This document shows positions 18,627 to 48,093 of a stretch of DNA of 64,000 bases, piece by piece. Where the stretch lies: assembly GCF_000340215.1 (NCBI RefSeq), contig NW_006921539.1, forward strand, positions 3,446,165 to 3,510,164. The letters run 5' to 3'. Source of the DNA: Pseudocercospora fijiensis CIRAD86 (lineage: Eukaryota > Ascomycota > Dothideomycetes > Mycosphaerellales > Mycosphaerellaceae). The notes below the pieces were generated by a model. That model was not told the DNA's origin. It saw nothing but the letters and a program-made list of their open reading frames with translations, and searched no databases. The position numbers and the translations under genes were made by a program. Position 1 is the stretch's first letter; every line of letters starts with the position of its first letter.

Positions 18627-18630
18627 CTAG

Positions 18631-19446: not shown

Positions 19447-19449
19447 TCC

Positions 19450-24490: not shown

Positions 24491-24496
24491 GCTTCT

Positions 24497-24516
24497 TAGA
24501 CCCCGTAGTAGTTCGG
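24497..24516 (+). repeat. Left terminal inverted repeat of the hAT element
   Basis: TAGACCCCGTAGTAGTTCGG, matching the right end in reverse complement over 20 bp. Target duplication TAGCTTCT is at 24489-24496. Confidence 0.93.
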
Positions 24517-24928
24517 GTTGGTTTGGTTTAGTTTACTAAGCCGAAACTCTAGTTTGGTTTAGGTTGGTTTGCTAAGCAACTATATAAGTAGCTGGTTCGA
24601 ACTATATAATTTATCGGTTTTTAAGAAGTGTACGAATGTATACGTAGCTTTAAGCAAGCCCTTTGTAAGACTTAGTAGTGTAGCCGGTAGCGTAGCCGGC
24701 ATTTTTAGTCCTTAGTACTTATAGAATTTTCGAATCCTACTTAGGCTACGTAGTTATATAAAGGTACTTATATAACCTTAAATCTATAGACAATTAGCTA
24801 AAGGCACTAACTAATTAAAAGCATATATACATACATACAAGGCATTATAGTTTAGTTCGGAAACTATACTCCTTAGGTATAAATTTTATCCTTTCGTTTA
24901 CGGTTCAATTCCCTAACTGCTTAGCAGA
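24517..24928. other. hAT left subterminal region
   Basis: Repeated GGTTTGG/GGTTTAG words (24510-24580) resemble the clustered short subterminal repeats that hAT transposases bind in other elements. A two-unit TAGCCGG cluster lies near 24671-24690. No gene seen. Confidence 0.5.
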
Positions 24929-25480
24929 ATGTCTTTATCTAGATCTAGGTAGAACTTATCGATTTCCCTAGAAGTCCTCCTCCTTAAGAAGTTTATATAC
25001 TTTCCTACCGAACTATTCGACAATATTAAGTACTAGGATAGCTCCTCCCTCGGTATCGGCATAGTATATAAAAGAGCTATAAGGCAGCTCTATAGAACGT
25101 TCTACTAGTTACTCGCTATACTAAGGCCGAATGCTAGTTCGTTCCCTAGAACTCTTAGTTATTTAGGAGATATAAAGGGTAGGGCAGGTAGTAACTTCGT
25201 ATTATATAAGGAGGTAGAGGCTGCTATAGAAGAGGCCTTTAACCTATAGAAGATAGTAAAAGATATAGAGGCAGCTACAGGTCTAGGTACCTAGTTGAAT
25301 TTCTAGTAGGTAGAGTATAAGGATATTTAGAGGGAGTATTAGGTAGAGTTGCGAAGGTAGGTATATAATATGCTCTAGAAAACAGGGATAGTGCCTATAA
25401 CTATAACTATTAGGCTCTTCAACCTTCCTTATTTTTCCCTGTTTTCTTTTTATAAAAATCTAAACTAATACAAATCAACC
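24929..25480 (+). pseudogene. Unrecognised hAT cargo frame, plus strand
   Basis: From ATG at 24929 a RIP-decoded frame of about 180 codons includes a Leu/Lys-rich start (LEVLLLKKFIYFPTELFDNI), a central Ser/Pro/Arg part and a Glu/Lys helix. I do not recognise it. It is the only cargo frame on the plus strand, facing the histone gene downstream. It may be an exon of a larger gene: a TAGCCGG-rich, intron-like stretch follows at 25516-25590. Confidence 0.4.
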
Positions 25481-25515
25481 GGAATATCTATCTTCTTTTA
25501 GTTCTTTAAAAACCT

Positions 25516-25590
25516 AGTAGCGTAGCTAGTAGCGTAGCCGGTAGCGTAGCCGGTAGCGTAGCCGGCAGCGTAGCCGGCCTTTTTACTCCT
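25516..25590. repeat. TAGCCGG tandem cluster
   Basis: Five degenerate 10-bp units of the form GTAGCCGGTAGC. A related, shorter cluster with the same right flank (CTTAGTACT) is at 24665-24715, so the two are paralogous repeats within the element. Confidence 0.8.
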
Positions 25591-25789
25591 TAGTACTAAC
25601 GGGATTTTAGGAGACTTCTATTCCGTACGGCTAATAAAGTATACTGTACTATATATATATACTTAGAGAGTATTTAGAGCGCGGTATATAGCGCCGTATA
25701 ATAGCGGCTTATTTCGTATATAGAAAAGCTTGCAGATAATACTACGAACATCCTTTCTACTAGAACATCTATCCTACCTAGCACCGTTT

Positions 25790-26476
25790 CGAATATAGAC
25801 ATTCTAGCCTTTTAGAATCTAATCGAGTGCTTTAAAATCCTTGTCTATAATCGTTATACGCTTCGCGTAGATAGCTATAAGGTTAACCGCTAAAATAGTA
25901 TTAGTATAGTCCGAAAAGAGGTAGAAGAGAAACATACATTCGAAGATACGAACTAGGTAGGCTTCTATAGCCTCTTAAAGGGCGCCTATCGCGGAGGCTT
26001 AGAAGCGAAGGTCCGTTCTATAATCCTAAGCAATTTCGCGAATAAGTCGTTAGAAAGGAGCTTTACGGATTAGGAGCTTAGAACTCTTCTAATACTGCCG
26101 AATCTAACAGAGGGCTACGGCTAAAGAAGGATTAGTAAAAAGACAGTAAGAATACCGGCTACGCTACCGGCTACGCTACCGGCTACGCTACCGGCTACAA
26201 ATAGGACTTACTTCCTAGGCGCTATCGACGCTTCGTACGATTGCTACTAGTAGTAGAAGCGCTAGTTGTCGTCTTACGTAGAGCCTTACCCGCCGTTGTC
26301 TTACGCGGAGCCTTGCTCGCGACGCCCTTTCTAGTACCGGAGCTAGCGGTAGCAGTAGCAGCCCTCTTACGTTAATATACTATACTCGTTCTACTATTTC
26401 CGGTCTTGTTACGACTAGTAGAAGCACTAGGTCCCTTCTTACGAGGCGTCGTAACTTAATTAAGTAGACTCGCTAT
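25790..26476 (-). pseudogene. Histone H3-like gene in the hAT element (three exons, RIP-mutated)
   Basis: Read on the minus strand. Exon 1 (26476-26212) decodes to a basic tail containing KAPRKTTAGKALRKTT, like the lysine/arginine repeats of the H3 N-terminus. Exon 2 (26120-25938) gives the histone fold with SSKLLIRKAPF-RLIREIA and TDLRF-ASAIGAL-EAIEAYL. Exon 3 (25889 to about 25790) gives NLIAIYAKRITI-DKDFKAL. Intron 1 (26211-26121) has GTAAGT, a TACTAAT branch site and TTAG, and holds TAGCCGG repeats. Intron 2 (25937-25890) has GTATGT, TACTAAT and TTAG. The 3' splice AGs follow T where C would be normal, as RIP predicts. The ATG has become ATA at 26476-26474. Frame and splice sites are otherwise intact, so the gene was whole when RIP hit. 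The C-terminal end is unclear and differs from canonical H3. Confidence 0.85.
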
Positions 26477-26999
26477 TGTAAAAGTCGTCGAATTAAGGAA
26501 AAAAGTGCGTTACGAAGGCGTACGAAGGCGCGCGCGGAGCGAGGGTATTACGGAGGTAGTAGATATAGAGCGTAGAGGTACAGGTATCGATACGAAGGTT
26601 GAATATAGCGGTAGTATCGCGGTATCGCTAGGCAATAGAGTAAGCTTCGCGTAAGCCTATATTATAGTAACGTTAGAGCAAGGAAAGAAGGCAGGTACGG
26701 CTAAAAAAGGCAGGTACGGCTAAAAAAGGCAGGTACGGGAGACTTTGAAATATAGCCGGCATATATAGCCGGTATAGTAATAGGCGAAAGCCTCCTTTTA
26801 ATAAATAGCCGGCGTAATAATAGTATCTTACTATAGTATAGATATTCTTTAGTAATGCCTTTACTAGCTATAGTAATCTTATAAGTAACCTAGGCCTATT
26901 ACTAGTAAATATAAGAAATATTAGGTAGGCTATACTAAACAAGCTAGTTATTTAGTAGGAAAAGGCCTACTACCGTCTCTATATGCCGGCTACGAGTGC
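26477..26999. other. hAT spacer with short repeats
   Basis: Contains three 17-bp units (GGCAGGTACGGCTAAAAAA, about 26692-26740), TAGCCGGC pairs at 26755-26780 and 26985-27010, and no decodable gene. Confidence 0.5.
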
Positions 27000-27660
27000 C
27001 GGCTATCGCTCTAAATTCAACTCCGCCCTATCTCGGAGGCTAAGGTACCGAGCGGAAACCCTATAGCTTATATTTACTCGGTTATCGCGGAGCGCTTATA
27101 GGTAAGGTATTAGAAAAGAGTATAAAAAGTACGAGAAGAGTATCCTAGGATATAGGTCGTAAGTAAATAAGAGTAGTACGCCTAGTTATTTATATAGTAC
27201 GTTACTCTATACGACTAAGAGCCTATATTATCTTATGCTTCGCTTATAAGACCTCGACTCTACTAGTATACTATCGATCTCTTCCTCGGTCGCTAATACG
27301 CTGTCTTAATTCTTCTTCGAGTTGCCGGACTTAGTACGTATCTATAGCTATACAATAGCGCTACGTATTATAGAGAATTTCTCGTTAAAGTTTCTCTCTC
27401 GTAGGCTTGCTATCTGCCTCGTAGTATAGAGGATCAAAGTACTAATACTAAAGAATCTCCTTATAGTTAGGATACTAGGGCTCCTTAGGACCTTTGTGTT
27501 TTAGGTCTAAATAGAGACGTATTATAAACGTTCTATCGCCCTTTCGCTTACTACCCGCTAGGTCGCGATATACGAAGAAACTAATCTAAATATAGCTCGT
27601 CTCTATAATAGCCGGGTAAATATAGAGCGCTAGGTTTCTACTTCATACCTTAGATTTAGG
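27000..27660 (-). pseudogene. Unrecognised hAT cargo frame downstream of the CenH3-like gene
   Basis: A RIP-decoded minus-strand frame (about 27590-27230 is the clearest) reads ISFFVYRDLAGSKRKGDRTF, then KHKGPKEPQYPNYKEIL, then RNFNEKFSIIRSAIV, followed by an acidic part. The spacing VYRDL...RTF..RL...KHKGPKEPQ faintly recalls fungal FluG-domain or tyrosine-recombinase-like proteins, but I see no catalytic R-H-R-Y set. It could also be a 3' exon of the CenH3-like gene, since a TAGCCGG-bearing, intron-like stretch lies between them at about 27665-27740. Confidence 0.4.
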
Positions 27661-27754
27661 GACGGCGCGGAGATAAAATTAGAAATGTAGCCGGTACCTA
27701 TAGCCGGTAAAAGGATACGAAAATAGGCCTCCTCCTAGGTTAATCTAACGACTA

Positions 27755-28410
27755 AATACAATTTCCAACTAATCCGCTATAAACCGACGCCGAATTTTAG
27801 CTAGAAGCTATATATCTTTATTTTAAAGAGTAACCCGCTTCGTATAGATAGTAAGGAGGTTTAAAAGCTTAAGCTCGGTTACGAGAAATGCCTCCGTAGC
27901 TTCCTAAAGAGCACTAATCGCCTTAGCCGTAAATCGTATACTAGACCGAAAATCTAATATAATTTCTCGGACGAGTCGCTAGAAGGGAGTCTTAGGGATT
28001 AAAAGCTCGGTCCCTCTTTTGTTTTAGAAAAGCCGGATCTAGCGAAGGGCAATAGTACCTAGTTTAAAGCGCCGCTTCTTTATCGTCGAGTCCTACCTTA
28101 TTCCCTTTCTTTTAATAGAAAGATAACTTTTCTTCGCAATAGTCTTCGTCCGCCTACTCTTTTTAGCCTTCTCCTATTTACCTATAGCCTTCTTATTTTT
28201 CGGTACTATTTTCCGAGGAACCCCCTTCCTTCGTATATACTACGGAGAGCCTTGCTCTTCCGATATCTCGTTCTCGCTACGGTCTCCCTATACTTAGCTT
28301 ACTTTACCCTTGCCCTTTAGCCTCTAAAGATATTTATCTACGCGTTTAGGCGACGAGGGTATATCGGTAGGACCTAGAAAATTAATAAGTATATAATCGT
28401 AAGGAGACAT
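27755..28410 (-). pseudogene. Histone H3 variant, CenH3-like, in the hAT element (RIP-mutated)
   Basis: From ATG at 28410 one intron-free frame decodes to about 215 residues. The first ~120 form a long, basic, non-H3 extension. The core follows: RRFKLGTIALR-IR, TELLIPKTPF-RLVREI, SSIRFTAKAISAL-EATEAFL and NLLTI-TKRVTL-NKDI-LL. The histone H3 fold is unmistakable. The long tail, EATEAFL and the LLT..KRVTL loop/helix fit centromeric H3 (CENP-A/CenH3) better than canonical H3, which has EA(V/I)EAYL and CAIHAKRVTIM. The insertion in loop 1 typical of CENP-A is not evident. A TAGCCGGC motif lies about 100 bp upstream (28510). Stops are all of RIP type; no indels are seen. Confidence 0.8.
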
Positions 28411-28789
28411 TAATGCTTCTTACCTTCTAGAACAAATAGTCTTCTATTAAACCGCCTTAGTAGGTTATCGTTAGATTCGAATAAAGGATAGTAGCTTAAG
28501 GAAAGGGAGGTAGCCGGCTTAGGAAGGCCCGAAGAGCCGAATCCTTAAGGTATGTTTATCTTTAAGAATATAGGGAAAGGGAAGAAGGAGAGGAAGAGCG
28601 AATAGAGAATTAGAAATAGTCCGTAGGTAAGCGGGGTCGGTTGCTATAGCAACTAGTCTATTTAGGTCCTAGGAATTCGAAACACATTTCGGATATATAC
28701 CGGCTATATATGCCGGCTATATTACCTTATACGTAAACGCTTCGTCTCCTTAAAGCTACTCTAAGCCTATATACGTTTCCGCTTCTCGA
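28411..28789. other. hAT spacer between transposase and CenH3-like gene
   Basis: Promoter-side spacer of the CenH3-like gene. Holds TAGCCGGC motifs at 28508-28517 and 28695-28720. No gene seen. Confidence 0.45.
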
Positions 28790-31085
28790 CCCGGTATCGC
28801 CTTCTACCTCCGCCCTCCTCCTCTTCGTTATCGCTAATTAGGGTTTCGCTTAGACTAAATTTCGTATTCTCTTCGCGCTCCTAGGTTTCTTCGATCTTAA
28901 GGTTTTCTAATTCCTCGATTAACTCCTTTAGTATAATCTTTAGTAACCTACCTTAGCGATTCTAGTAGAGGAGATAGTATCGGAATACTATAATAGATTC
29001 GAAAGTAGTAGGCGAGTATATTCGATTAAAGCGGCCCTAGTAACGAGCGATACTAAAAGACCTCTTATAGCCTATACCTACGCTTAGGATAGCGAGGACG
29101 TCCCGAGCGACCGACGCTATCGTTAGAAACCTAGGCTCTAACCGCTACTATATAGCGAGAATATCGTCTCCGAATTCGTCTAGAAGACCGGTAAGATCTA
29201 GAGATTATTAGCCCTCTTTCCGAGCCTACGGGTTTATACTTACTCGCGCGCCGATAGAGATCGAACTCTTCTTTATTTACTTTAGTAGTTGCTTCCTCTT
29301 CTGCCTCTACTTCCTACCTACGAAACAAGTATAATATCGGAGCCTTCTAAACCTTCTTTTTCTTTATAGGAGCTGTATTTAGACTAGTTTCTTTCTAACG
29401 CTCGTAGAATATCTTTTCTAGAATAGTCTAGTAATGCTTCGGCTATACCTCGTCCGCCTTCTATTCCGGCCTCTACTAGTATATATCCTTTTCTACCGGG
29501 TTAAGCAAGTATATAACGCTATAGATATCCCCGAACGAGTTAAAGGTAGCACTATAATATTTATACAACTTAGTATAGGAGGTATCTATAGCTTTCGTTA
29601 TAGCTACTTTCTAGGGAACGCTCTTCTTAGCTAGCTTAGCTACAGTTTCCTCGAGCTCGTTAAAGAGCTAGTTATAGTACGTAAAGACAAGGTAGATCGT
29701 CGGTCCTTAGGTTCTTCTAATCGTAGTAGTAACCTTCGCGTAATGCTTACTAATATCGACGAGATACTCTACTTAGCGCTATTCGGCGGCGGTAAGGCCG
29801 AGCTACTTAATACCCTCGGAACTCTAATAGATCTCGAGAGCGGTACGTAAAGTATATCCTCTCGTAACTATATAGAAAGTCGAATCGAACTAGGTCTTAA
29901 TGTCTTAGATAAAACGGAGTAGGCGCTAAGGAGGCCGCTTTTACTATCGCTTATTCTATGCGATATTCTAGGTATCGGTTTTAGGGCGCTCGATTAGGTT
30001 CTTTTAAATAGCCTTAAATCGGTTATATCTCTATAAGCTCGAGTTCGTATATATTGCTAGACGACGAAGCTAGAGAAAAAGAGTTAGAACTATACTAGGT
30101 TGCCGGCTATAGGTACCGGCTACGGACAAAAGTTATACCTTATATAAAACGAGAGCGAGGCTCTCTACCTTATCCCGTCTTATTACTATAATAAGTTTCT
30201 CGACTTTCGACTTTGCTTTATCCTTATCTAGGATCTTCTATTAGTTATCGTTTAATAGTGCAATTTTAAGCGTCTTAAAGAGGGCTCGGATCGCGATTTG
30301 AACTATATAAGCGAGGTAGGGAAACTTCTATAGGGATGTAACTAGTAACGACGTCGGCTCCGATTCGTTAGGGCTAGGGCTATTAATAGGCTCCTCTTTA
30401 TCGTTATTATCGTACGTATTATCGTACGTATCCGGAATCGTAGCGAGCTTAACATTCGGAAGATTAAGCTAGATTATAGACCTTATAATCTCCTCTACGT
30501 ACTCGACCCTATCGATACAATTAGTAATTTTAAAGACATATACGAGTAAATTGTATATATAACGCCTTATATAATATTCGATTATTACTAGCGTTATCCG
30601 TAGTAATCGAGATTAGTTTCGTTATTACGCTAACCCTATCTATTACTATATAGATAAGCTTCGCTATATCCTTACTAGTATAGGAACCTAGAATTTTAGG
30701 GAATCCGATTATAAGTTCCTAGAGTTTCTAATCCGAATTAATAAAGTATAGTATAATCGAGAGGAAGGAGGCTCTTATAGTCCGGCTTAACTAGCTATCG
30801 ATAGCAATAGCTACTCGGCGAGTATTACGGAGGATCTCCCGAATATCGTCTAACGTAGCCTCTTTATTCTTTTCGAATATAATACGCTAGGTTGTCGCGC
30901 CGAGAAATAGGGGAGGGTAGTTTATAAGATATAGGTATATCTTCTATATAGACTCCCTTTCGTAGAAGTCTTCCGGAAGACCGTTTATAGCTAGCATTTC
31001 GTTTACTAGTTGCTTAAAGTCTTCGGGGGAGAAATCGGTAGCCTTTAATCCTAGAGCTTCCTTAAGCGTAGCCTATAATAATTAG
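28790..31085 (-). pseudogene. hAT-family transposase (RIP-mutated)
   Basis: Minus-strand decoded frames give the RNase H-like core start RVAIAIDS-LSRT-RASFLS with the ITTDNASNN box (about 30850-30580). The middle helical part follows with GIK-LGLTAAE-R-VEYLVD and KVTTTIRRT (about 29830-29720), then DIYSVIYLLNPVEKD (about 29550-29500). The C-terminal dimerisation region has DILAI, FLTIASVARDVLAI and KRSFSIARY (about 29150-29020). This order is that of hAT transposases. One intron near 30135-30070 has a CTAAC branch site and contains two TAGCCGG motifs. A frameshift or second intron lies near 29190. It would have mobilised the element carrying it; it is now dead. Confidence 0.85.
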
Positions 31086-31109
31086 CTAAACCTCTACGGT
31101 TGATTTAAG

Positions 31110-31240
31110 TAGCCGGAATCTATAGCCGGAATCTATAGCCGGTAGCTATAGCTAGCAGCTATAGCCGGTAGCTATAGCCGGCAGCTATAGCCGGCAGCTA
31201 TAGCCGGTAGCTATAGCCGGTAGCTATAGCCGGTATTTTA
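31110..31240. repeat. TAGCCGG/TATAGCCGG cluster upstream of the transposase
   Basis: About nine near-tandem 12-bp units (CTATAGCCGGTAG) directly upstream of the transposase frame on its promoter side, the densest cluster in the element. Confidence 0.85.
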
Positions 31241-31299
31241 GAAGACGTACCTCTTTCTAGAACGCTATATCTATATTAACTCTCCTCTCTCCTTAAGAT

Positions 31300-31858
31300 T
31301 CCCGATACCGTTTAGAATAGAGATAGTTCGTAGGCGATAAGTTCCTATCCCCTAGTTTCGGGTATTTTAAGATTAAACCGTAGAAGTTGTAGACAATTAC
31401 TAGTTAACCTTTAAGTCGAGAAGTCGTATAACGGTGCAATGCCCCCTCTATAAAGAACTTCTAGAATGTGTCCGTTCGCTCCTTACTCCCCTATCGTATC
31501 GAGTACTTCCGGAGTTTATACTCCTTCGAACGTAAGTATAAAGGGAACTATATCTTATAGACCTATTAATTAAACTACTCTATATACTCGGGTTTCTAAA
31601 GATACGCCTAGCTAGCCTTTTCGAAGATTTCCGGGTTAATACTCGATATTCTTATATCTCCGAATAACCTTCTACTTAGACTCCGTAAAGGTAAGGACTA
31701 GGTAGTAGTACCCTATAATAAATTCCTACTACTAGGATTCGGAGAGGATAAATCTAGCCCTAATCGTCGTCTAGGACTCGATAGGCTCGAAGGTAAGTAT
31801 ACGACCTCCTCTCGACGTTGTCGTAATCTCGCTCGTATACTAGACTGTTTCGACTGTC
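31300..31858 (-). pseudogene. Unrecognised hAT cargo frame, split by G2-B
   Basis: Minus-strand frames decode at 31858-31640 (TVETV-YTSEITTTSRGGR, then an aromatic/basic part) and, in another frame, at about 31640-31330 (IFEKASQAYL, KEYKLRKYSIR). Removing G2-B and one target copy joins 45714 to 31858 with the frame kept (RKSNNETTVETV), so it was one gene interrupted by the insertion. No family recognised. Confidence 0.45.
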
Positions 31859-32058
31859 TATTAGGACTAAAGAGGTTATACGACGTAATTAGTATATAAC
31901 TAGGCTCGAGTAAAGCTAGGGTCTTAATACCTTAGGTAGGGCTTAGCGCTTAGCGTTAGGCTAACTAGCCTACCTTCCTCCCTCTTCTTTTAGATCTCTA
32001 TCGAATACTACTTGTATCTACTACTACCCTATCTACCTACTAATATACCCTTATTATA
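31859..32058 (+). repeat. 5' LTR of G2-B
   Basis: About 200 bp; matches the other three G2 LTRs. It is followed by TAGTATTCGATC, also present beside the G2-CD 5' LTR and the likely primer-binding area. Confidence 0.9.
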
Positions 32059-32438
32059 TAGTATTCGATCTATCCTTTAAGGGTAGTAGCTAGATAGTCC
32101 TTATTTTAAGCTTTTAGCGGTATAGCTACGAAAACTATCGATTTAACTATATTACGTCTAAAAGACAGAACCTATACGTACTATTCTATTAAAACAATCG
32201 TACTAATTATTAAGCAAGGCCTTCTATACGGCCTATTATACTAAGTTAAGCATACTAAGCCGATATCTACTAATTCCGCTATATCCGTATCTTAGGGGCT
32301 AATAATATATTATTAGTATCGCCCCTTATAATAGCCGGTTTATTACGAAATTATAACCGTACTGCCGCTAGTAGCGCTAGTAACGACAACGCTAGTAGTA
32401 TAGTACCTACTAAAGTGCCTACTAAAGCTCTTACTAAA

Positions 32439-32642
32439 TATTAAGATATTAATTAAATAGCTATCTAAATTAATAATAAGTTAAGGAAGGAAAGAAAGAA
32501 GCTCTTCTATAGAAGGGGCCTTTTATCCGCTCGGCGGAGGCCGCTTAGCGGAGTCCGTAGGCTTTAGATTACGTAATTTGGATTACGTAACCTTAAGTTA
32601 CGTAATCTCGAATTTTATATATAAGTCGCTAAGATCGTAATA
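32439..32642 (-). repeat. 3' LTR of G3
   Basis: 204 bp, differing from 38990-39193 by only a few C/T and G/A changes. Confidence 0.93.
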
Positions 32643-34356
32643 GCACTCTCCCTCTTCGTAGGCGACGTCTATAGCGCTATTACTTATTATCCTTAGATCG
32701 TTACAATTATAGCGACTAAAAGTAGTACGCTTAGTCGTATTAGTGCCGCGGAGTTAGTAATACGTAGCGGGCGCGGTTTACGTAGGTATCGATAGTAATA
32801 GTCTTCTACTACTTCTTACGTATTAGTAACGTCCTTAGCGGCTTCCTATATTAGCTTATTATAACCGATCTACTTTACCTTATATTATATATTGTCCTTC
32901 TTTCCTTTCGAGTCTAATATCTATTCTACCTTCTATTCCTCGTCGCTATCGATAATTAATAGTAGTAGCAGCTTATATTGCTAACTAGGTATACTCGCTT
33001 TAGGTACCGGTATAAGGAGCGACGTATAAAACACATTATATACTCGTATTAAGTTAGGTAGCTTTAGCTAGTACGCGTATAGTAATACGATTTTAACGAT
33101 CTTATATAGGCTAGAGTTCTTAACGTCGAGCTTAGCGTTTAGCCGATTAGTACTTATATCTTTAAGAGATAGAAATACCTTATTACCGACTTAGTATATA
33201 AGGGTAGGTCGATAGTATTAGTTAGTAGAGTCTTCTATATAAGATTGTTAGTATCTTATCTACTCGACGAGGTAGGCTTCGAGGGTCTAAAGATAGTCTA
33301 TCTAGGCCTAAGCGTCGTAGTTAATTAGTAGGTCCTCTTTCGGTAATATCGAAGGCTCGCTTTTAAGGCGCGGATTATAGCTATAACTAGCTTAGAAAGG
33401 TAATAACCTAGTAGTCTCGGATAGTACGTTATTTATTACGAATTCGGTAATAGGAAGCTATAAGCTCTAGTCGTCTTACTTATAGTTAATATATAACTAG
33501 AGGTATCTTTTAATAACCTCGTTTAATCGCTTAGTCTATCTATCGATTTAAGGATAATAAGTAGTCGAAAGGTTACGCTTAATATATAGGCGCTTATATA
33601 AGTAGTTCTAGAACTTAGAGATAAACTACGTACCGCGGTCTAAAGTAATAGTATTAGGAAGGCTATAAAGCTTCTAAACGTACGTAAGGTAGGTATTAGC
33701 GACTATCTAAGCGCTCGAGTATTCTTCCTTATATACGAATAGGATAAGATATCGTATCTTAGTTAATCGATCGACGACGATAAGAATCGAATTATAACTA
33801 GAGCTATCGGGGAGACTAGTAACGAAGTCTATTATTACGCTCTTCTATCGAGCGGTTAGTATAGATAGAGGGCGAAGGAGTCTATATTTCGCCTACTATA
33901 ACGATTTAGTCCGAAAATAGATATAGTAGATACCGATATATCGTTTAATATCTTTATATATTTACGGCTAGTAGTAACTATAGCTAGTAAGGTAGAATAT
34001 CTTTATAATATCGGAGTATCTAGTAGCGGAATAGTCGTAGTATACGCGGATAATATCGGTATAAAGTAATTTATCTATTTCCTTAGCCTCTAGTATATAA
34101 AAGTAATCGTAGTAGAATAGAAGATTATCTTTAATCTCGTAATCCGAAAGGGATAGAAAGAGATTATTAGAGGAATCCGACTTACTATAAAGGTATCCCT
34201 TTACTTATTAAAAAAGGGCGTCCTTAATCGAGGCCTCTCGAATTCGCTTAGTAATACTCTCGGCGTTAATTAAAGTCTCGGCGCTAAGGGATTCTATAGT
34301 AAATATAACTATATCGTCGCTAGTAGCGTCGATACGAGCTTTTATAAATTAGGGTT

Positions 34357-34388
34357 TACCCTAACCCTAACCCTAACCCTAACCCTAA
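34357..34388. repeat. Interstitial telomere repeat 1 (CCCTAA)n
   Basis: About five CCCTAA units, flanked on the left by AGGGTTTA and on the right by GGGTCG, inside G3 pol. Confidence 0.95.
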
Positions 34389-34469
34389 GGGTCGTTACTA
34401 TAAAAAACGTAAAAGTCGTTAAATCGTCCGTTTCTTCGAGGACTATAGTTATTTACCTTAGGGTTACGT

Positions 34470-34508
34470 AACCCTAACCCTAACCCTAACCCTAACCCTA
34501 ACCCTAAG
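34470..34508. repeat. Interstitial telomere repeat 2 (CCCTAA)n
   Basis: About six CCCTAA units in G3 pol, only 80 bp from repeat 1. It is preceded by the inverted fragment TTAGGGTTACG (34459-34469). Confidence 0.95.
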
Positions 34509-37149: not shown

Positions 37150-38900
37150 GCGGACGAGCTCTAGATAAGTAGTATTAGAGCAGACGTAGTTACTACTATA
37201 GAAGCGGTATAAACCCTCGTAGCGACGGCGATCTCTCTCTTTAATCGTTACGCGGCGACGATTACCCTAACCCTAACCCTAACCCTAACCCTAAGTAGTA
37301 GAGAGGTCTATAGTATCTAGGTCGCGGATAGTCGTAGTCGTAGTCGTAGTAGTGCCGGGGTTGTTATTATTATTATTCGCCGAGGTAAATTGCCCTTAGT
37401 TATTACGCGGAGCGATATATCCTTATAGAGTGTACTAATTATTAGAGCCGCTAGTATTATTATTACTATAGTTAGCGTTCGAGCCTTAGTTAGTAGTATT
37501 GCTTAATCCTAGCTTAGTATTATCGTAGCTGCTTTCTACGCGATACTAGCGGAGCCGATTATCGATAATAGTTAGTCGTTAGTATAATACTAAGAAGTCG
37601 GTAGGCTTATTATATATATTACTAAGCGCTACTTTCAATTCGGAAGACAAGCTACGCTTAAGAGCGTTAACCTAAGCTCGGCCTTTATAACTAAGTAAGG
37701 CGTTAAGTCGATTAAACTCTATAAGGTAGTAAGCAAACTCCTTATTCTTCTACTTTAAGTTGTCTAGCTTATAACTAGTAGTAGCGACCTTATTAGGATC
37801 GCCGAAGGCATTAACTAATAGGTTGCAGAAGTTATCGAGGTTATCGAAATCTACGATTACGCCTTATTTATCGTAACGGACGTATAGCTAGACTATCGAG
37901 CGGGCTTTACCGGTAGTACGACTATACGTATATATTAACTAGTCTTATAGTATCGGAAAGCGATTATTATTAATTATTAACTTAATCGTAAGCTTAGTAA
38001 GGAAGGGCTTTAGCTTTTTACGGTCTCTATCGTATTTCTCGGGGTCTAGATACTTCTCGCTCTTACTATATCTAGTATAGTTATTATTATCGTCGATACT
38101 ACGGTTAAATCGAGAACGTCGGAGAGGCTTAGGTTAGTCGCGAAAGATAAAGGGATCGAGAGGTCGACGGAATAGAGGTTAGCTATTATCTAATATAAGT
38201 CCTCGACTAATTAGATTATATAATAAAGACGCTTCGGCGTCGCGACGAGCGCGAGCGGCTTATTTACTAGCTCGTCGAGCGATATCTTCTACGGAAGACT
38301 ATTATTATTATAGGCGAGCGACCTACTAAGCTAGGTTATTACGCTACTATTGCGTAATAACTAAGGAGTTGCGTACTAAATCGGCGGCTCGACGCTAGTA
38401 TTCTACTTTAGTCCGAGCCTATACTAGCTCGCTATTAAGATAAGTATTAGTCTTATAATAAGCTTATTATACCTATTCTAATATCTCTACCTCTTACTAG
38501 TATTGCTAACGAAGTGTAGCTACTAACTAATATAGCTTAGTTATACGCTAGAAGATATATTTAGCGGCCTCCTACTCGTTTACCCTATTAAAGAACTAAT
38601 AGAAGTCTTAGAGGCTACTAGGTAGCGGCTATCGTAGTACGCTATCGATGTCGGCGAGACTAGGTCGTAGACCTTGCAGTAGTTATAGTAGTTCTAGTAT
38701 ACCGTTTAACGGGGCCCTAGCTATTCCTACGTAGTTAGGCGTATTCGTATATTCCGAGCCGCTACCGCGATCGGTAGGCGGTCTTAAAGGATTTATAGCG
38801 AATCGGCGGTATTACTACGGTCGGGTAGCTTACTATACCTAATATAGATTAGTATATAGGTCTATTAGTACTATCGTATAATAGGGAGCGTAGAAGGGTA
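37150..38900 (-). pseudogene. G3 gag
   Basis: The minus-strand decoded frame has a helical capsid-like region and a serine/arginine-rich linker. A cysteine knuckle lies near 37230-37180 (YRFCSSNYVCSNT, cysteine spacing partly lost). A run of telomere repeats (37264-37294) sits just before the knuckle. Position and composition fit Gypsy gag. Confidence 0.7.
37264..37294. repeat. Interstitial telomere repeat 3 (CCCTAA)n
   Basis: Five CCCTAA units inside G3 gag, same orientation as the other two. Confidence 0.95.
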
Positions 38901-38989
38901 ATAGCGATCGCCGGCGGCGTAATTCCTTATATAGGTATATACGATAGTACCTACGACGTTATTATAGGTAATAAAGGAACTCGTTATTC

Positions 38990-39193
38990 TATTAAGATAT
39001 TAATTAAATAGCTATCTAAATTAATAACGAGTTAAGGAAGGAAAGAAAGAAGCTCTTCTATAGAAGGGGCCTTTTATCCGCTCGGCGGAGGCCGCTTAGC
39101 GGAGTCCGTAGGCTTTAGATTACGTAATTTGGATTACGTGACCTTAAGTTACGTAATCTCGAATTTTATATACAAGTCGCTAAGATCGTAATA
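38990..39193 (-). repeat. 5' LTR of G3
   Basis: 204 bp; the CTAAA duplication follows at 39194-39198. Confidence 0.93.
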
Positions 39194-39198
39194 CTAAA

Positions 39199-42100
39199 GT
39201 GCCTCCTACTAAAGGGCCTACTACTAAGCCTACTAAAGAACCTATAATTCTAGGTAATAACCTAGAATTGCCTATCGACGACATCCTTTATAATATTATT
39301 AACCGTCGATATAGCTAACTAGCCTTTAGGCCCTAACTAGTAGGGAGACTCTAAGAAGCTACCTAAAACAGGCTTACTGCCCTACGTTAAGAATAATAGC
39401 TAAAGGATAACCTCCTTAAGATTCGCCGCCTATAGGAAGCCCTAATAACTACTACTAGACTAGAACTAGTAGTAGGACCTTCTATTTAAAAGAAGGATGC
39501 TAAGCTTAAAGACTATACTGTATTTAATAGCTCTAGCCGCAAGCAGTACAATAATTATATACGTAATTGTAAATTAAACTAGCGGAATATACTAAGGGCC
39601 CTACTAGACGACTATTCGCTAGTCGTCTATACTATACAATATATTAATAGAGACCTAAAGCGTACCTAGGATAACTACTTTAACTCCCTTACTAATTAGA
39701 CCGCTATTTAGTAGCAAACCTATAAAACTATTATGCTAGACACCCTTAGAAACCCTATACTAAGGCAACAATACGCTTAGGACTAGTACCTTCGGGCTAA
39801 GCAAAAGACTAATTAATTAGCTCGTTTATTTAAGGCCTATTTAAAGACCCTCGAGGACGATTTGCTAGCTAAGACCGACTCTATCTAGATTTCCGAAATA
39901 CGCCCTAAATTGCGATAGGAGTTAGTCCTTAAATTAGACCGCCGTCGTATATTCGAACAGGCTAACCTAATACGCATTCAATTTATAGTCGAGATAGAAA
40001 TAGCTAAACGAGCTGTCTAGCTCTAGTAACGACTAGAATTAAGGATCCGACCTGCTAGCAACCGTAGTAACCGTAGCCGCGGAGGAAACTAAGGTTCCTA
40101 CTAAGACAACAATACTAATAATAGGAACAGTAACGATCGTAGAAGAGGCCGTAGCCGGCGGCTATATAGAGGAGGCCGCGATAGGGGCCGTAGAAGGGGC
40201 TCGTATCCCTATAATACTAACCGCTCGACTAATAATAGTAGTAATAATAGCTACGGCAACAATCTCCTAACCGGATTAAAGTGCTTTAACTATAATAGCA
40301 CTAGTTATCTACTAGGCTAATACGACAAACCTAAGGACTAGGCCCGAATCGACCGTACTACTACTAAATATTAAAAGCACCTTTTAGCCGCTAATGCTAC
40401 CCCTATAGGCTAACCTTCGAAAAAAGAATAAGCGCCGCACTAACTATTAGCCTTGTACGGCGTAAAACTATCGATATAGTGCTAGCTATTATACGTACCT
40501 GTCTCGTAGGAGATATATATAGGAACAACTATAAGACTAAGGTTACGCTAGACCCGAGAAATTTAGTTAGCGCCCTTATTAGCTATCGCCTAGCTAAGCA
40601 ATTAGACCTTCGACAACTACCTAAGACTAACCTACTAACCCTTGCTTAGTTTAATAACGCTCGGCACTTAACCTACGGAGCCTACTATATCTATATAGCC
40701 CTAAGAGACGACCTCGGCAATAAGCGCCTACTAAACTTTACTGCCTACGTAGTAGATATAGACAGCCTCCTATCTAACATTGTTATTAGTAACCCTATTC
40801 TTAAGTACTATGCTATAGTTATAGACTTAGGCAGTTAATAATAGCGATTTAGAATCGCTAGGAAAGAGGACATTAAATACATTAATATTAGCGAGTGCCC
40901 TAATAATATTAGGGTCCTATTTATTAGCAACCTAACCCTAGCTAATCCGACGGCCGACCTACTCGGTAGTAATAACGATAAACTAGTGCCCCCTAATAGT
41001 ATAGATCCTAAACAACTTAAGCGTATACTAGAACCTATTCGAGAGACCTATATTAATGTATTTAAACACTACCTAGTATCGACGTTACCTATGTTTAAAG
41101 AGACGGATTATAAGATTGATATTATAGAGGGCAAGGAGGTTCCTTTTAGCCCCCTCTACAACCTTAGTAAACGAGAGCTTACTATGCTACGTAAGTACCT
41201 AGAGGAAAACCTAGCTAATAGTCGAATTCGGTATAGCAACAGCCCTACTAGTGTACCTATCCTATTCGTACTAAAGAAGGATAGCGGCCTACGTTTATAT
41301 ATTAATTATAGAGGGCTTAATGCTGTTACTATTAAAGACCGCTGTCTACTCCCGCTTATTAATAAGACCCTCGACCGCCTTTCTAGTACCTACTACTATA
41401 CTATATTAGACATTAAGGACGCCTATTACCGCATCTGTATTCGTAAGGGCGATAAATAGAAGACAGCCTTCCGTACTCGCTATAGCTATTTCGAGTACTT
41501 AGTTATACTATTTAGGCTAGCTAATGCCTCTGCTATATTCTAGTCCTACATTAATCGGGCCCTATTAGGCCTACTAGACTACCTCTATATAGTTTACCTA
41601 GATAACATCCTAGTTTATATATACTTACCTAATATTGCGGAGTACTAGGCTATAGTCCGCAAGGTGCTCGATCGCCTACGAGCCTATAAACTATATTACA
41701 AGCCTTCTAAATATACCTTTACTACTAAGGAGGTAGCCTTCCTTAGTTTTATCGTATTAACTAAGGGTATTAAGGCTAATCCTAATCGGATTAAAACTAT
41801 TACTAAATGGCCTGTTCCTACGTTAATTAAGGAGCTATAGTCGTTCCTCGGTTTTGCTAACTTCTATCGCCGATTTATTAAGGGCTATTCGAGGCATGTA
41901 ATGCTACTAACTAAGCTTACTAAAACTAAGGCCAACCCGACTAGAGAGTTTAAATAGACTAATAGAGTACAAGCCGCTTTTAACAGTTTAAAGAAGCGAT
42001 TTACTAAAGTCCCTTTATTATACTATTTTGTACTAAACAAGCAGATCCGAATTGAGACTAACGCTTTACAGTTCGCTATATTAGCTATAATGTCTTAGCA

Positions 42101-44290
42101 GTTAGACAGTAACTACTACTAGTACCTAATTGCCTTCTTCTCGAGAAAGATAATTAATACTAAGCGTCGCTACGAGACCTACGAGTAAGAGCTCTTAGCT
42201 ATTGTCGAGGCCTTTAAGTATTAGAGGCATTACCTCGATAGGGCCTAATATACGATATAGGTCTATACAGACTATAACAACCTCCGTAGCATTACTAAGG
42301 TTACTAGAGTTATAGGTCGATAGGCTAGATAGGCCGTCTACCTCGCTAGGTTTGATTTTAATATATTATATCGGCTAGGCGTAAGTAACCCTACTAATAG
42401 CCTATCGAGGCGACCTAATTACGACAGCGGGACTTAGCAATCTATTAATTCATTGTTTCTAATCCTATAGTATAAGATTGCTATAGCCCGTATTGTTAAT
42501 AAGCAAGCGTAGGATAAGCGGCTTACCGGACTCCGCGACGGCTTAAAGTATGTTAATGCTCTTACTATATTAATAGTACGTATTAAGGACACAGATAGGA
42601 GAAGTTATAATAACTCCCTAGTCGACATCGCTATATATAGTAATAGCGATAGCACTACTACAGTTAATCCGGCTACTAGTGCTACTAGATATATATAGTA
42701 CGTACTACGTAAGACAGCGAGGGTGCTATTAAGCGAACTTATAGAAGGGGATAGACGAGCGTTTATAGATAAGCTGTTACGTACTTAGCAAAGGGACGCT
42801 TTTGCTACTGCTCGTATAGATTAGCTTAGAAGTAGCCGTAAGACTAGATCTAGTAAGAATTAGTCGATCGATACTAATAGCTATTTGCGCTATAAGGGTA
42901 GGCTCTATATCCCTACTAAGTATTCGATCCGATAAGAGCTTCTTAAGCGACACTATAATAGTAAGCTTGCCGGTTACTATAGTATAGAGAGGTCGCACGA
43001 GTTACTATCGCGCATATACTACTAGCTAAATAGTAAGCGGGATATAAAGGACTACGTAAATACGTATGCCGTATGTTAACGAGTTAAAGTACTAAAGCAC
43101 TTACTATTTAGCGAGTTGTCTTTACTCCCTGTTCTAAAGAAGCCTTTTATAGAGCTTATAATAGACTTTATTATAGGTCTTCCCCCTACTAAGCGAAGAG
43201 GAAGCAAGGACGTCTTTAACGCTATACTAGTCGTTATAGACCGATTTACTAAGGGTGCTCGCTATATTCCTACTCGGAAGGATTAGACGGCTATTAATAT
43301 AGCTAAAGCACTATAGAACAATATCTTCTACAGCTATTAGGGGACCCCTAAGGGAATAGTCTCCGATAGGGGCTCGATATTTATATCGCACTATTAGAGC
43401 GAAATATGCCTATAGCTAAGACTAAAGCATCGGCTATTAACAGCCTTCTATCTACAGACTAACGGTCAAATAGAGAGATAGAATACTACCCTATAGCAGT
43501 ACCTACGTAGTTATATTAACGAGAACCCTAAGGATTAGGTCAATCTCCTATAACTAGCCGAATTCGTATATAATAACAGTATCTACTTATCTACTAAGGT
43601 GTTACCTTATTTCGCTATAACAGGAAGCAACCCTGCGCTACTATAAGACCCCCTATCGCTCGAGGCCGAGCGTAAGGAAAGGGAAGCGGGTTAACCTAAG
43701 ACACTAGCGGCTATTAAGAGGGTTTAGAAGATGCGAGAAATCTATACTAAGATAGCCGAGAAGTTAACAAAGGCTTAAGAGTACTAAAAGACCTACTATA
43801 ACAAACACTACCTTCTAATAACCTTTAAGCAAGGCGATATAGTTATGCTTAGTACAAAGAACCTCCGTATCTGCAAATACCTATTACCCGATAGCAAAAC
43901 AAGGCCTAAGCTCGTACTAAGATATATTAGCCTATTCTGCATCCGAGAACCGAAGGGCATATAGGCCTACTAGTTATAGCTTCTACCCTATTACACTATC
44001 TATAACACCTTCTATATATCCCTCCTTAAACTATACTATTAACGCGAAGGCGATAAAGCGCCTGCTAAGTTAGAAGAAGTCTTAGCTAATAGTAAAGAAC
44101 TATAGTCTATAGAACGTATTCTATAGTACTAGACTAGGAAAGGTAAGAAGGAGTACCTATTAAGATAGCAAGGCTATTTACCTAAATAGGACTCGTAGGA
44201 AGCTAAAGCCTCTTTTGAAGACATAACTAAGTTGTTAGATGAGTACTAGACTAGTATAAAGAACAAGAAGAAGGCTAAGGGCCTATAATA
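39199..44290 (+). pseudogene. G2-B gag-pol, main part
   Basis: Decoded domains in order: gag C-terminus with an Arg/Gly/Asn-rich knuckle (about 40060-40330), retropepsin-like part (about 40480-40830), reverse transcriptase (40986-41459 still open, with [12 protein letters not shown], then LDN in place of the catalytic DD near 41600), RNase H (about 42050-42400), integrase (about 42950-43650, with DFIIGLPPTKRRGSKDVFNA and TNGQIERQN), and a chromodomain (about 44110-44250, ERIL-Y-TRKGKKEYLLR and GYLPK-DS-EA). A chromodomain places G2 among chromoviruses, which in other systems target heterochromatin. The gag start (about 32290-32438) is separated by G3. Confidence 0.9.
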
Positions 44291-44301
44291 TCGCCTAGGA
44301 A

Positions 44302-44326
44302 TAATACTACCCCCGGGGTGCTATTA
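44302..44326. repeat. CCCCCGGGG palindrome after G2-B pol
   Basis: TAATACTAC / GTGCTATTA arms around CCCCCGGGG. Same position, immediately after pol, as the copy in G2-CD, and the same type as the five copies in G1. Confidence 0.85.
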
Positions 44327-45512
44327 GCTAACTAATTAGAGATAAGCAAGTGTTAGCAACAAAGGACAATAAGACTATACTAGGCGCGCTACGACGCGTT
44401 AATTAATTAATCGTATGCTCTTTCAAGGACTCTACCTCTTTACTAACGCGCCCTATAGGTCCCCCTCTTATTCCTTTATTCTATTAAAGCCTCGAGGCCT
44501 AGGCGATCGGCGAGGACGGCGTCGCGCTTATAATAGCGCGGCCGGCGCGGCTATATTAGTAACGGTGTTACGGAGTGTGTTGCTATTTAAGAAAGGAAGG
44601 ACATAGCTATATTAGTAACGGTATTACCGAGTTGTTATTAGTTAAAGAAGGAAATTAGAAGTAAGGTAAAGTTAGCGCTAAGACGACTAGCGCCGCTATT
44701 ATTAATATTACTTGCTATTGTCGCTACGCCTATAGACACAACCTTACCTATACTACAAGCCGGAGCGTACCCTACCGGCTAAGTTAAAAGAATAGCTATA
44801 TTAAAGGTTTAATTAAAACTTTAATTAAAACTTTAAGCCGCTTAAAAGATTAAGCGACTAATAGACTAACTAACTAAGGGCAAAACTATAGAGCTAAGCT
44901 AGCCGGGGTCGATCTTGCGGACAATAGGTTACTCCTCGATCTATCTAACTCTTTAAGCGAGGCGAACCTCTACTACTATACTTATAATAGCCTTTACTTA
45001 TAGAAACTAGACGAGCTGTGTTTTTTGAAAAGATAAGATATGATTGACACTTAAAGGCTACTAAACCTAGCTAATTAGGGCTAGCGAAACTACGAACAAT
45101 AAGAACAATAACCCTTAGAAGCGGACAAACCCTCGGAAGCGGACATTACTAGGTCTTTTAAGAGTAGACGCAAAGAACTCGGTACGATATTACTTAGAAC
45201 GGAGGCAGGGCTACAATACCTCGTACGTCTACCTATTATAGCAGGGAAGACGCGCTCGTATTATAATTAGTCGAAGGCCCTTAATTCTTATAGGTATATA
45301 CTACTTTATAGGTTGTTATATATAAGGATAGCGTAGTTAGAGTTAAACATTGTATTAGAGGTGAGGTTTAACATAGTTATATAATTAGGTAGTTAAGTAT
45401 TCAATTTAGCGCGGGCTAAGAAGCTTGCTAGACCTACTAAGTTAGTAGCGATAGAGGTTAAGAATAGAATATAGACCGGCTACGAGGGCGCGGCCTTTAG
45501 AAGGGAAGCGTG

Positions 45513-45709
45513 TATTAGGACTAAAGAGGTTATACGTAATTAGTATATAACTAGGCTCGAGTAAAGCTAGGGTCTTAATGCCTTAGGTAGGGCTTGGCGC
45601 TTAGCGTTAGGCTAACTAGCCTACCTTCCTCCCTCTCCTCTTAGATCTCTATCGAATACTACTTGTATCTACTACTACCCTATCTACCTGCTAACATACC
45701 CTTATTACA
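45513..45709 (+). repeat. 3' LTR of G2-B
   Basis: 197 bp. The purine-rich GAAGGGAAGCG just upstream (about 45500) is the probable polypurine tract, also found beside the G2-CD 3' LTR. Confidence 0.9.
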
Positions 45710-45714
45710 CTATC

Positions 45715-46009
45715 GTCTCGTTGTTACTCTTCCTAGTATAGCGCCTAGTATATATATAATATCGGTCGGTATGTTTTAAGGTTTCGTACGGTAAGGTAAG
45801 GACTTAGGAGTAGTAGATATATACTAGTAGCTATAGGGAAACACCCTTTCTTTTATAGCATCGTATCGTTAGGAATAGCTAGGCAGTAAATAGCTAGCTA
45901 CCTTTTTTTTTGTTTCCTAGCTACCTAACTACTAGATTTTTTTTCCTAGCTACCCTAGCTAGCCTAACTACTAGAATTTCTTTCCTAGCTACCCTAACTA
46001 CCTAAATTT
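45715..46009. other. hAT interior right of G2-B
   Basis: 45715-45760 continues the split cargo frame of 31300-31858 (minus). 45890-46005 is a degenerate repeat of CCTAGCTACC-type units with short T runs (three to four copies). No further gene seen. Confidence 0.5.
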
Positions 46010-47420
46010 TGCCTTCTATACGGCGGCTCTCTCCTACTAACGGAACCGAGCTACTATACCTAACGAATCTAAGCTCGTTTTTAGTCTTAATCTATCCTCT
46101 TTCGGTATAAGACACTCGATAAGCAAATGCTTAGGCCGAGTCTAACTACGAAACCTAAGACTAACTAATAGCTCTATTAACTAATCCTAATCCTCGAACT
46201 CCTTCCGCTTCTTAGTAAAGACCTTAAAGAGCGCTCGAGCTTCTTCGGGTACCTACGGAGTAGTCGAGATAAAGCCGTATCGCTAAAATAGATAATCCTT
46301 CGGAGGCTTATATAGAGATTTAGAGAATTCCAACGCTAACCTATCCTACTAGTAGCTTAGATTCCGGATACAAGCCCTCTCTGCCTTAGTAAAGATTTTA
46401 TATAGTAGTAGTACTCTACCTTCGAGAAACGCTTTCTATTTAACTGTTAGTATCTACCGGCTACGAACGCCGGCTATATATACCGAGTATAGAATAATTA
46501 CCTATACCCCTTCCTCCTATAGTAACACTTCTACCGTCCCTAGATACCTAGCCCCGATCGCATTAATCGCAAGCTACTTTGCCTTTATAGACGTAAAGGC
46601 TTCGCTCTAATACTAATAAAGAAACTTCTACTCTATATCGAGGATATAAAGACGACTAGTCTCGATTCCAATCCTTGCTAGCTTTTCGTAGTAGCTTTAA
46701 CTATAATTTTCTAGATTAATAGGACTTATACCTTAGCCCTTTACTAGTATCTCGTCTCTTTAACTATACTCGATCTACTCCTAGCGCTTATCGTCTATAG
46801 CGTTAGGCCCTAAGACTATACCTGTTACTAGATCGACGTATAGTATCTCCTCGCTTTTTTTAGTTCCTTTATTCGTAGTATTAAGCTCTATCGCGGCATC
46901 CTAAACTCTAGCATTGTTGTTCTCGGCTATCTAAATATCTCCGTTACTATCGGTCGTATCGATAGAGATAGCGGCTATAGGTCTAAATGCTATTAGTTAA
47001 CGTATTAAAGAAAAATATACCGGCTATAGCTGCCGGCTACGGCTGCCGGCTATAGCTACTAGCTACGGCCGCTAGCTAGATTAACTTACGCTACTAGAAC
47101 TTTACGCTCGAAAACTAGCCGCAATTCTTTCCTCCTCTTAGCCTTCTCTTAGATTGTCTTCTTATTCTAACCTTCACTTTTTTCTATAGGCGCTAGCTAT
47201 CGATAGAATGCCTTATTCCGCGCCTTTCTTCTCTTATCCTTAGCTCTTTTATCCTTATCTATCTTGTCCTTTCTCTCGCGGTCTCGTACGGAATTCTTCT
47301 TCGTAGAGTACTCCTCTTTAGTCTTACGCTTTTTAGTTAGACGCTTAGGCAAAACAAACTCGCGGTCTTTAGTTCTATCTTCTATTTAGCGCGCGGCGCG
47401 CTTCTCTCTTACTATTGTAA
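46010..47420 (-). pseudogene. Unrecognised hAT cargo gene, three decoded exons with motif-bearing introns
   Basis: Exon A (about 47400-47090) is very basic (RDRERKDKIDKDKRAKDKRR). Exon B (about 46990-46520) decodes to AISIDTTDSNGDI, IELNTTNKGTKKSEEIL, and DLVTGIVLGPNAIDDKR. Exon C (about 46440-46010) includes PEEARALFKVFTKKRKEFED and TRPKHLLIECLIPKEDRLRL. The intron before exon C starts GTATAT, has branch TACTAAC and ends ATAG, and contains two TAGCCGG motifs. The intron before exon B likewise holds several. The basic N-terminus suggests a nucleic-acid or chromatin-binding protein, but that is inference and I do not recognise the family. Confidence 0.5.
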
Positions 47421-47544
47421 GGGAAAGGGGCAGGGGCGTAGCGTATAGTAGTTATTATCGGTATAGGTATAGAGGAAGAAGTTAAAAGTGTAAGAATATC
47501 GCGAAGCCCTAATTGTTGCCGCCTACGTAACGTTATATAGGTAA

Positions 47545-47880
47545 GCTTTCGCAACTACGGCAGCTACGCCCCGGCAATAGCAACTACGCCCTAGTAACGG
47601 CAACTACGCCCTAGTAACGGCAACTATACCCTAGCAACGGTAATAAAGCGTAGTAAATACAACCTAGTAACTATTATAGCCGGCAATCGTAGCCGGCAGT
47701 CGAATAAGAGTGTCCTTATAGCAAAACTACGCCCTAGCAACGGCAACTACGCCCTAGCAACGGCAACTACGCCCTAGCAACGGCAACTACGCCCTAGCAA
47801 CGGCAACTACGCCCTAGCAACGGCAACTACGCCCTAGCAACGGCAACTACGCCCTAGCAATAGCAAAAGAGCGTAGTAAA
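47545..47880. repeat. 20-bp minisatellite in the hAT element
   Basis: Unit AACTACGCCCTAGCAACGGC occurs in two blocks (about 47565-47640 and 47725-47865). Each block is followed by a related ~100-bp segment with two TAGCCGGC motifs (47677-47700 and 47897-47925), so the unit array plus its flank was itself duplicated. Confidence 0.85.
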
Positions 47881-47939
47881 TGTAATAGAGTTACTATTAT
47901 AGCCGGCAATCGTAGCCGGCAGTCGAATAAGAGTATCCT

Positions 47940-48065
47940 TATAGTAAAACTAATATAGTCTCTAGTTCAAACTAGGAATCTATATAGTTCGAAAAAACTA
48001 AACCGGAACTAGGGAGCTAGTTCGCCGCTAAGAAACTAAACTATATACGTTTAGTAGTTCGGAAA
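47940..48065. other. hAT right subterminal region
   Basis: Short AGTTCGAA/AGTTC words and AAACTAAAC words mirror those near the left end. No gene. Plausible transposase-binding region. Confidence 0.45.
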
Positions 48066-48085
48066 CCGAACTACTACGGGGTCTA
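48066..48085 (-). repeat. Right terminal inverted repeat of the hAT element
   Basis: Exact reverse complement of 24497-24516, followed by TAGCTTCT at 48086-48093. Confidence 0.93.
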
Positions 48086-48093
48086 TAGCTTCT

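Follow-up and report, generated by a model that had tools for sequence, protein, structure and literature searches.

Transposons are silenced through histone H3 and its marks, and a DNA transposon that carries histone H3 genes of its own raises the question of what these histones are, how they have been kept and what they would do for the element. This question is posed by a 64,000-nucleotide stretch of the genome of the fungus Pseudocercospora fijiensis CIRAD86 (contig NW_006921539.1, forward-strand positions 3,446,165 to 3,510,164, or C8:3446165-3510164; hereafter the window). Between 24497 and 48085 of the window lies a transposon of the hAT superfamily in which two minus-strand genes, here named H3a and H3b, encode divergent histone H3 variants beside the element's transposase. 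From its anatomy and its recurrence in this one genome (73.9 Mb, 30 contigs searched), we regard the existence of a histone-bearing hAT family as practically certain.

H3a occupies 26476-25807 on the minus strand and consists of three exons. Exon 1 (26212..26476), the tail, has a putative ATA start codon that would be an ATG changed by repeat-induced point mutation (RIP), exon 2 (25938..26120) holds alphaN, alpha1, loop 1 and most of alpha2, and exon 3 (25807..25889) the end of alpha2, loop 2 and alpha3. Reading of the splice sites places intron 1 (GTAAGT..TAG, 91 nt) at 26121..26211 and intron 2 (GTATGT..TACTAAT..TAG, 48 nt) at 25890..25937, and splicing at these canonical sites gives an uninterrupted fold of H3 length through alpha3. 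With stops written as X, the spliced product scores 94.2 bits (E 9.1e-27) against the profile PF00125, and H3 is the best match in PDB for the H3a of a sister copy, L039 (E 3.7e-33). Intron 1 has the phase of intron 2 of the host H3 gene (phase 1) and lies one codon further; the phase fits capture of an intron-bearing H3 gene, and the one-codon shift leaves independent gain possible.

H3b (27772..28410, minus strand) is a single exon with RIP-type stops, which reads through alpha3 in one frame when these are written as X. Its N-terminal extension of ~85 residues precedes RRTKTIAKKS, a sequence similar to ARTKQTARKS, with which H3 begins. The stretch C8:3473954-3474325 of the window gene scores 80.6 bits against PF00125 (cut-off 26.4), and the 90% identical H3b of another copy, L044, scores 82.5 bits (E 3.7e-23, stops as X), has H3 as its best PDB match (E 5.7e-27) and matches the CENP-T histone-fold model as well, though under the cut-off of that model. 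No confirmed relatives of the H3b fold were found in viral contigs. The initial annotation, made from the sequence alone, had described an H3-fold gene with two clean introns at 25790-26476 and a second one with a long tail at 27755-28410; the profile search that it proposed scores both decoded frames as histone H3, and the two genes are confirmed within the slightly shorter limits given here.

On the minus strand the transposase is followed by H3b and then by H3a. It was read in three pieces, namely an RNase-H-like part with TIDS and TTDNASNN contexts (piece 1, 30533..31066), a second piece (29350..29889) and a C-terminal dimerisation domain (28956..29204), the same stretch of which in the sister copy L051 scores 23.9 bits against PF05699 (cut-off 21.4). 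Piece 1, in the version of the complete copy L040, aligns over 170 columns with an open 798-aa hAT reading frame of the same genome (E 1.7e-12, from a one-subject BLASTP without composition correction). Two aspartates were read by eye in TIDS and TTDNASNN, which we take to be hAT-like catalytic contexts, and the glutamate of the DDE triad was not located. The first six-frame Pfam scans of L040 returned no hAT match, nor did single-sequence and profile searches of PDB find a hAT signature by sequence. Across the genome there are 84 PF05699 matches, of which 5 have a listed H3b copy 1.0-1.3 kb downstream on their strand, against 0/84 in the mirrored control, and one further match adjoins a copy of subfamily B (see below) on contig C17; the matches beside histone copies score 18.5-22.9 bits, near the cut-off. 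Judged by these signatures, the transposase beside the histone genes is of the hAT type. The open 798-aa hAT transposase, with a dimerisation domain free of stops, belongs to another element (L052:17-2413, contig C2).

The ends of the element are formed by a 20-bp terminal inverted repeat (TIR), TAGACCCCGTAGTAGTTCGG at 24497..24516 (plus strand) and its reverse complement at 48066..48085 (minus strand), enclosed by the 8-bp target-site duplication TAGCTTCT at 24489..24496 and 48086..48093. The 20-mer occurs exactly 393 times in the genome, against 0 for the reversed control. Three complete copies, L039, L040 and L041 (9,565, 9,579 and 9,598 bp), whose 20-bp termini are exact and whose 8-bp duplications are GCCGAGGA, AAGGTATT and TCGATTAG, respectively, align to the window at 24497-31858 and 45709-48085. 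Because these copies cover only the two stretches, the element proper consists of a first part at 24497..31858 and a second part at 45709..48085, is ~9.57 kb long canonically (9,739 bp in the window copy) and is interrupted by a nested insertion at 31859-45708. The termini, the duplication and the outer ends given in the initial annotation could be re-read as described; its single element of 23.6 kb has to be replaced by the shorter, interrupted one. Both termini are present in five examined copies on five contigs (the window copy, L039, L040, L041 and L049), and the target-site duplication is exact in four of them and matches at 7/8 bases in L049. The element has the 8-bp duplication, the short inverted termini common to its copies and, in its transposase, the RNase-H-like part and PF05699 domain known from the hAT superfamily, including fungal types such as Restless, to which it adds the two histone H3 variant genes and dispersed GTAGCCGG arrays.

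A further sequence feature of these elements is the motif AGCCGG/CCGGCT, whose density is 3.2-3.9 per kb in five elements that are complete or nearly so (the reversed control occurs 1-3 times in each), 2.3 per kb in part of subfamily D and ~0.5 per kb outside elements. About half of the successive spacings are 12 or 13 bp (18/36 in L039, none in D), the arrays extend into introns and spacers, and GTAGCCGGN5GTAGCCGG is present 270 times in the genome (reversed control, 0). It is possible that the dispersed GTAGCCGG arrays are binding sites of an element protein. Close to one element end, L040:9191-9501 contains ~20-bp tandem repeats of the AACTACGCCCTAGTAACGGC type and a 143-bp duplication. For two open stretches, one on the plus strand near the left end of the element and one on the minus strand upstream of the transposase, no Pfam family matched above its cut-off.

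The histone genes are not peculiar to the window copy. With a 2.76-kb query from the histone region, all of the best 40 of 501 candidates that were scored proved near full length and 97-100% identical (window included). A genome search with PF00125, in which the best 150 of 772 candidates were scored, returned two matches without stops, the host H3 and the host CenH3, and 148 with stops, which are TAG or TAA with the exception of a single TGA; these damaged matches were assigned to H3b by shape and length, not one by one. The best 150 of 792 candidates scored for an H3a query comprise 149 damaged matches listed beside host H3. At least 73 of the 148 damaged H3b matches have an H3a on the same strand 1.9-2.5 kb downstream, against 0 at the mirrored position, and this is a lower bound because both lists hold the best 150 candidates each.

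Four diverged subfamilies were distinguished, each with both histone genes: A (L039-L041), B (L048; 76-83% identical to A in the aligned parts and read with its right end), C (L049; 9,143 bp and complete) and D (L050; right end and both histone genes read). Three of the four showed a transposase. A six-frame search of L040 at E 0.1 turned up no further core histone. A one-off capture is ruled out by the recurrence in many copies and four subfamilies; the search that the initial annotation called for, for the same two genes between the same termini, found the pair in the places counted above, with both termini in five copies. As the pair recurs and the profile search succeeds, neither of the two outcomes set beforehand as telling against the annotation, a single captured copy or a failed profile match, was observed. 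Twelve subfamily-B matches (>=300 bp, >=87% identity; best 40 of 763 candidates scored) lie on the small contigs C11, C12, C17, C20 and C23; none of those listed falls on C1-C10, where 83% of the bases are found, and C14 has a 133-bp fragment at 87%. Seven matches of ~80-84% to the B query, among them L049 of subfamily C, cluster within 363 kb at C13:388970-752368.

Over 33 copies of subfamily A, C/T or G/A differences make up 390 of the 421 variable columns, and 31 of the copies are gapless relative to the window copy (window itself counted), one having 1 gap base and one 33. H3b carries 10-14 stops in each of the 33 copies and a frameshift in one, and each H3a exon is free of frameshifts in all 33. 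The RIP-type damage already noted in the initial annotation is borne out, and the pattern agrees with a burst that started from an intact source, with RIP acting afterwards; RIP would have inactivated every copy scored.

In order to place the two proteins, the matched exons of host H3 (L042) and host CenH3 (L047), both without stops, were compared with them. With canonical H3 the element genes share the whole alphaN-alpha1-L1-alpha2-L2-alpha3 fold, a loop 1 of H3 length and, in H3a, the phase-1 intron; they differ from it in their extended or rewritten tails, in a fold identity of 46-63% and in three changed positions (host numbering). Position 113 is Tyr in both genes (H113Y), which read IYAK or IYTK where host H3 has IHAK, position 126 in H3a is Ala (A, B, C) or Thr (D), and position 110 is Ile in H3a (C110I) and Leu in H3b (C110L); we take these positions to form the H3-H3' contact. 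R69, R72, F84, K115, R116 and T118, presumably DNA-contacting residues of H3, are kept, whereas H3b has P or L in place of R63, which is also missing from the H3a of B, C and D, the H3a of B has P at R83 and that of D has R at K64.

With CenH3 (host L047; S. pombe cnp1) the element genes share a divergent tail and, in H3a, a fast-changing alpha1-L1 region. Host CenH3 has a longer loop 1 with RWQ, whereas H3a and H3b lack both the insertion and the CenH3 tryptophan, and judged by loop 1 neither of them is CenH3. In a tree of 15 rows and 90 columns, with long branches (H3a_D was flagged as long), H3a forms one group (98/94), H3b another (100/100) and CenH3 a third (99/97). The best tree places CenH3 apart from both element genes, which lie together on one side of a 90/93 branch (not starred). 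The approximately unbiased (AU) test rejected H3b and CenH3 as one clade (p 0.02), as it did H3a and canonical H3 (p 0.02), and it did not reject H3a and CenH3 (p 0.12). A CenH3 identity of H3b is ruled out by its loop 1 of H3 length, the missing tryptophan, the tree and the AU test; the earlier description of one canonical and one CenH3-like gene has to be given up, both being divergent H3 variants by loop 1 and tree.

Since RIP makes ordinary dN/dS unreliable, selection was tested with transversions only, which are insensitive to RIP. Exon 3 of H3a (22-24 codons) appears constrained, with omega 0-0.22 and p 0.0008-0.029 in 6/6 non-independent pairs, and the transposase has omega 0.27-0.83 with p < 0.05 in 3/6 comparisons. 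The gaps are more informative. Between A and B all five coding gaps, each in a histone exon, are multiples of three, against 7/37 elsewhere (Fisher p 0.0009; ends and the 6.3-7.2-kb spacer left out), and between A and C all six are (five in histone exons), against 11/27 elsewhere (p 0.011; gaps at 6460-6900 left out). Taken together, 11/11 coding gaps are multiples of three and 10/11 lie in histone exons, the two comparisons not being independent, since A takes part in both and two or more gaps recur. In the spacer that separates the two histone genes, A and B are 41-46% alike, with 75-88% in windows over the genes, and A and C are 75% alike. As read from these alignments, the histone genes stayed in frame while the spacer between them turned over.

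Exon 2 of H3a behaves otherwise than exon 3. It differs more than intron 2 in 5/6 pairs (p 0.00002-0.016; the exception is A-D, p 0.099), a contrast that may be exaggerated, as intron 2 offers few RIP targets and so may look slow. Between A and C, 41/180 exon 2 sites differ, compared with 8.6% in the background, for which the named genes, the introns and the spacer were set aside (p 1e-8). Judged by eye, the sites that change fast are those around the beginning of alpha1 and those of loop 1, flanked by the anchored PF.RL.REI and EAIEAYL. This resembles the evolution of the CenH3 loop 1, in a protein without the CenH3 sequence marks. Taken together, these results suggest that selection probably acted on the histone genes.

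What the element would have gained is best explained, in our judgement, by H3 variants that served it by altering the chromatin on which silencing acts, an explanation to which we give an even chance of being right. A fungal H3 gene would have been captured by the element once and then duplicated into H3a and H3b, as the 90/93 branch and the common IYAK/IYTK suggest. Entry of both proteins into nucleosomes is plausible because many of the presumed DNA contacts of H3 are kept, and nucleosomes built with variant H3 and altered tails would be poor carriers or readers of silencing marks. Exon 3, which we take to hold the H3-H3' contact and the Asf1-binding face, would have been held more constant for assembly, and the diversified exon 2 would present another face that evades a changing host factor, until RIP inactivated the copies. 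The most likely service would be the weakening or evasion of silencing, at the element or genome-wide, and a specific anti-silencing role of H3a and H3b is put forward tentatively, as a proposal that could well prove wrong. The idea in the initial annotation of own nucleosomes that let the element survive silencing would be of this tentative kind too. More speculative still, and improbable in its full form, is that H3a and H3b pair preferentially into element-specific mixed nucleosomes that hide the element from silencing, directed by the dispersed GTAGCCGG arrays, with exon 2 of H3a in an arms race with host chromatin factors; preferential pairing is proposed because the H3-H3' contact is changed (L126A/T in H3a, C110L in H3b, H113Y in both).

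Besides the caution given for exon 2, several points weigh against selected histone genes in the service of the element. Transversions reveal no significant constraint on H3b or on the tail and exon 2 of H3a (omega ~0.4-3.3), and in exon 3 amino-acid changes are also present in the pairs with B. The omega values between host H3 and the element folds (0.40-0.67, with p < 0.05 in 6/8 comparisons), which speak for selection, partly reflect constraint on the host gene. RIP blurs all comparisons, and a sliding-window period-3 test of A against B had too few transversions (2/29 windows at p < 0.05). No intact copy was found among the best 150 candidates scored in each of the PF00125 and H3a searches, no transposase piece was found in the 9.9 kb fetched for D, and B and D were read without their left ends. 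Furthermore, TIR pairs with the same termini lie 373 bp apart at C1:8853279-8853651 and C2:581713-582085 (100 of the 393 places listed), the size of miniature inverted-repeat transposable elements; being too short for histones, they suggest that the histones are dispensable in cis for movement.

The lack of significant transversion constraint between subfamilies in H3b and in the tail and exon 2 of H3a would also be expected if an H3 gene had been captured and duplicated early and carried along without a function for the element. Gene capture by DNA transposons is well known, and Pack-TYPE elements likewise hold host-derived genes within terminal repeats; here, in contrast, the pair has been kept beside the element's own transposase through the divergence of subfamilies. 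The retention of both genes in four subfamilies, the eleven in-frame gaps and the excess of silent transversions in H3a exon 3 make such passengers unlikely, if a serious candidate.

Of similarly limited probability is the idea that the variants poison H3 deposition or histone-modifying enzymes in trans, weakening silencing and RIP genome-wide instead of labelling the element. The histone-free 373-bp TIR pairs are compatible with an effect in trans, the fast exon 2 of H3a fits a conflict with a host factor, and the divergent tails keep modification contexts in part (RRTKTIAKKS in H3b, GKAPRKTTAGKTPRK in the H3a of B). The tails as read nevertheless lack a classic blocking substitution, such as K to M.

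A centromere-type variant, with one gene replacing or mimicking CenH3 so as to place or protect the element at centromeres, could be seen in the long N-terminal tail of H3b, in the fast loop-1 region of H3a and in the p of 0.12 for a clade of H3a and CenH3. It is made very improbable by the loop 1 of both proteins, by their position outside CenH3 in the best tree, with H3b and CenH3 rejected as a clade, and by the spread of the copies over many contigs. Chance histone likeness in AT-rich, RIP-mutated DNA, or mis-assembly, might be suspected from the heavy mutation (10-14 stops per H3b), and is dismissed because Pfam and PDB, with stops written as X, give E values between 1e-23 and 1e-33, the TIR occurs 393 times, and five copies, each on a different contig, have both termini and a target-site duplication.

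The surroundings of the element have a history of their own. The nested insertion (31859..45708, 13,850 bp, missing from L039, L040 and L041) lies outside the hAT element proper and is itself composite; its ends are ~95% alike across 198 bp, and inside it lie a direct repeat of 204 bp and, at 40845-41459, a fragment of a reverse transcriptase (RVT_1, E 0.0024, below cut-off). Its part at 39331-45070 aligns with window 18627-24517 at 85%, and there are matches between other parts and the right flank; since parts of the insertion match both flanks, the hAT element seems to sit inside a relative of the retroelement that subsequently inserted into it. The window is heavily RIP-mutated; TpA/ApT ranges from 1.75 to 2.18 over the first 52 kb (13 blocks), is 1.32 in the next block and falls to 0.58 and 0.55 in the last two. 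This unmutated right-hand DNA carries ordinary genes (56116-61777), among them ORC4 (59252-61777) and DJ-1/PfpI (57957-58799), and a PAN_1 match below its cut-off (56116-56769).

Histone H3 genes kept readable across subfamilies are unexpected for a DNA transposon. A parallel is that of virus-encoded histones (Marseillevirus, Medusavirus, the bracovirus H4), in which a mobile genome likewise brings its own histones; here it is a cut-and-paste DNA transposon, and the six frames of L040 hold H3 variants and no other core histone. If the explanation through altered chromatin is true, transposons can contest the nucleosome itself, via in-frame H3 genes of their own with one diversifying surface. 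The element would then be the cut-and-paste counterpart of viral histones and a natural source of H3 variants, and the contribution of mobile elements to histone-variant evolution would become testable.

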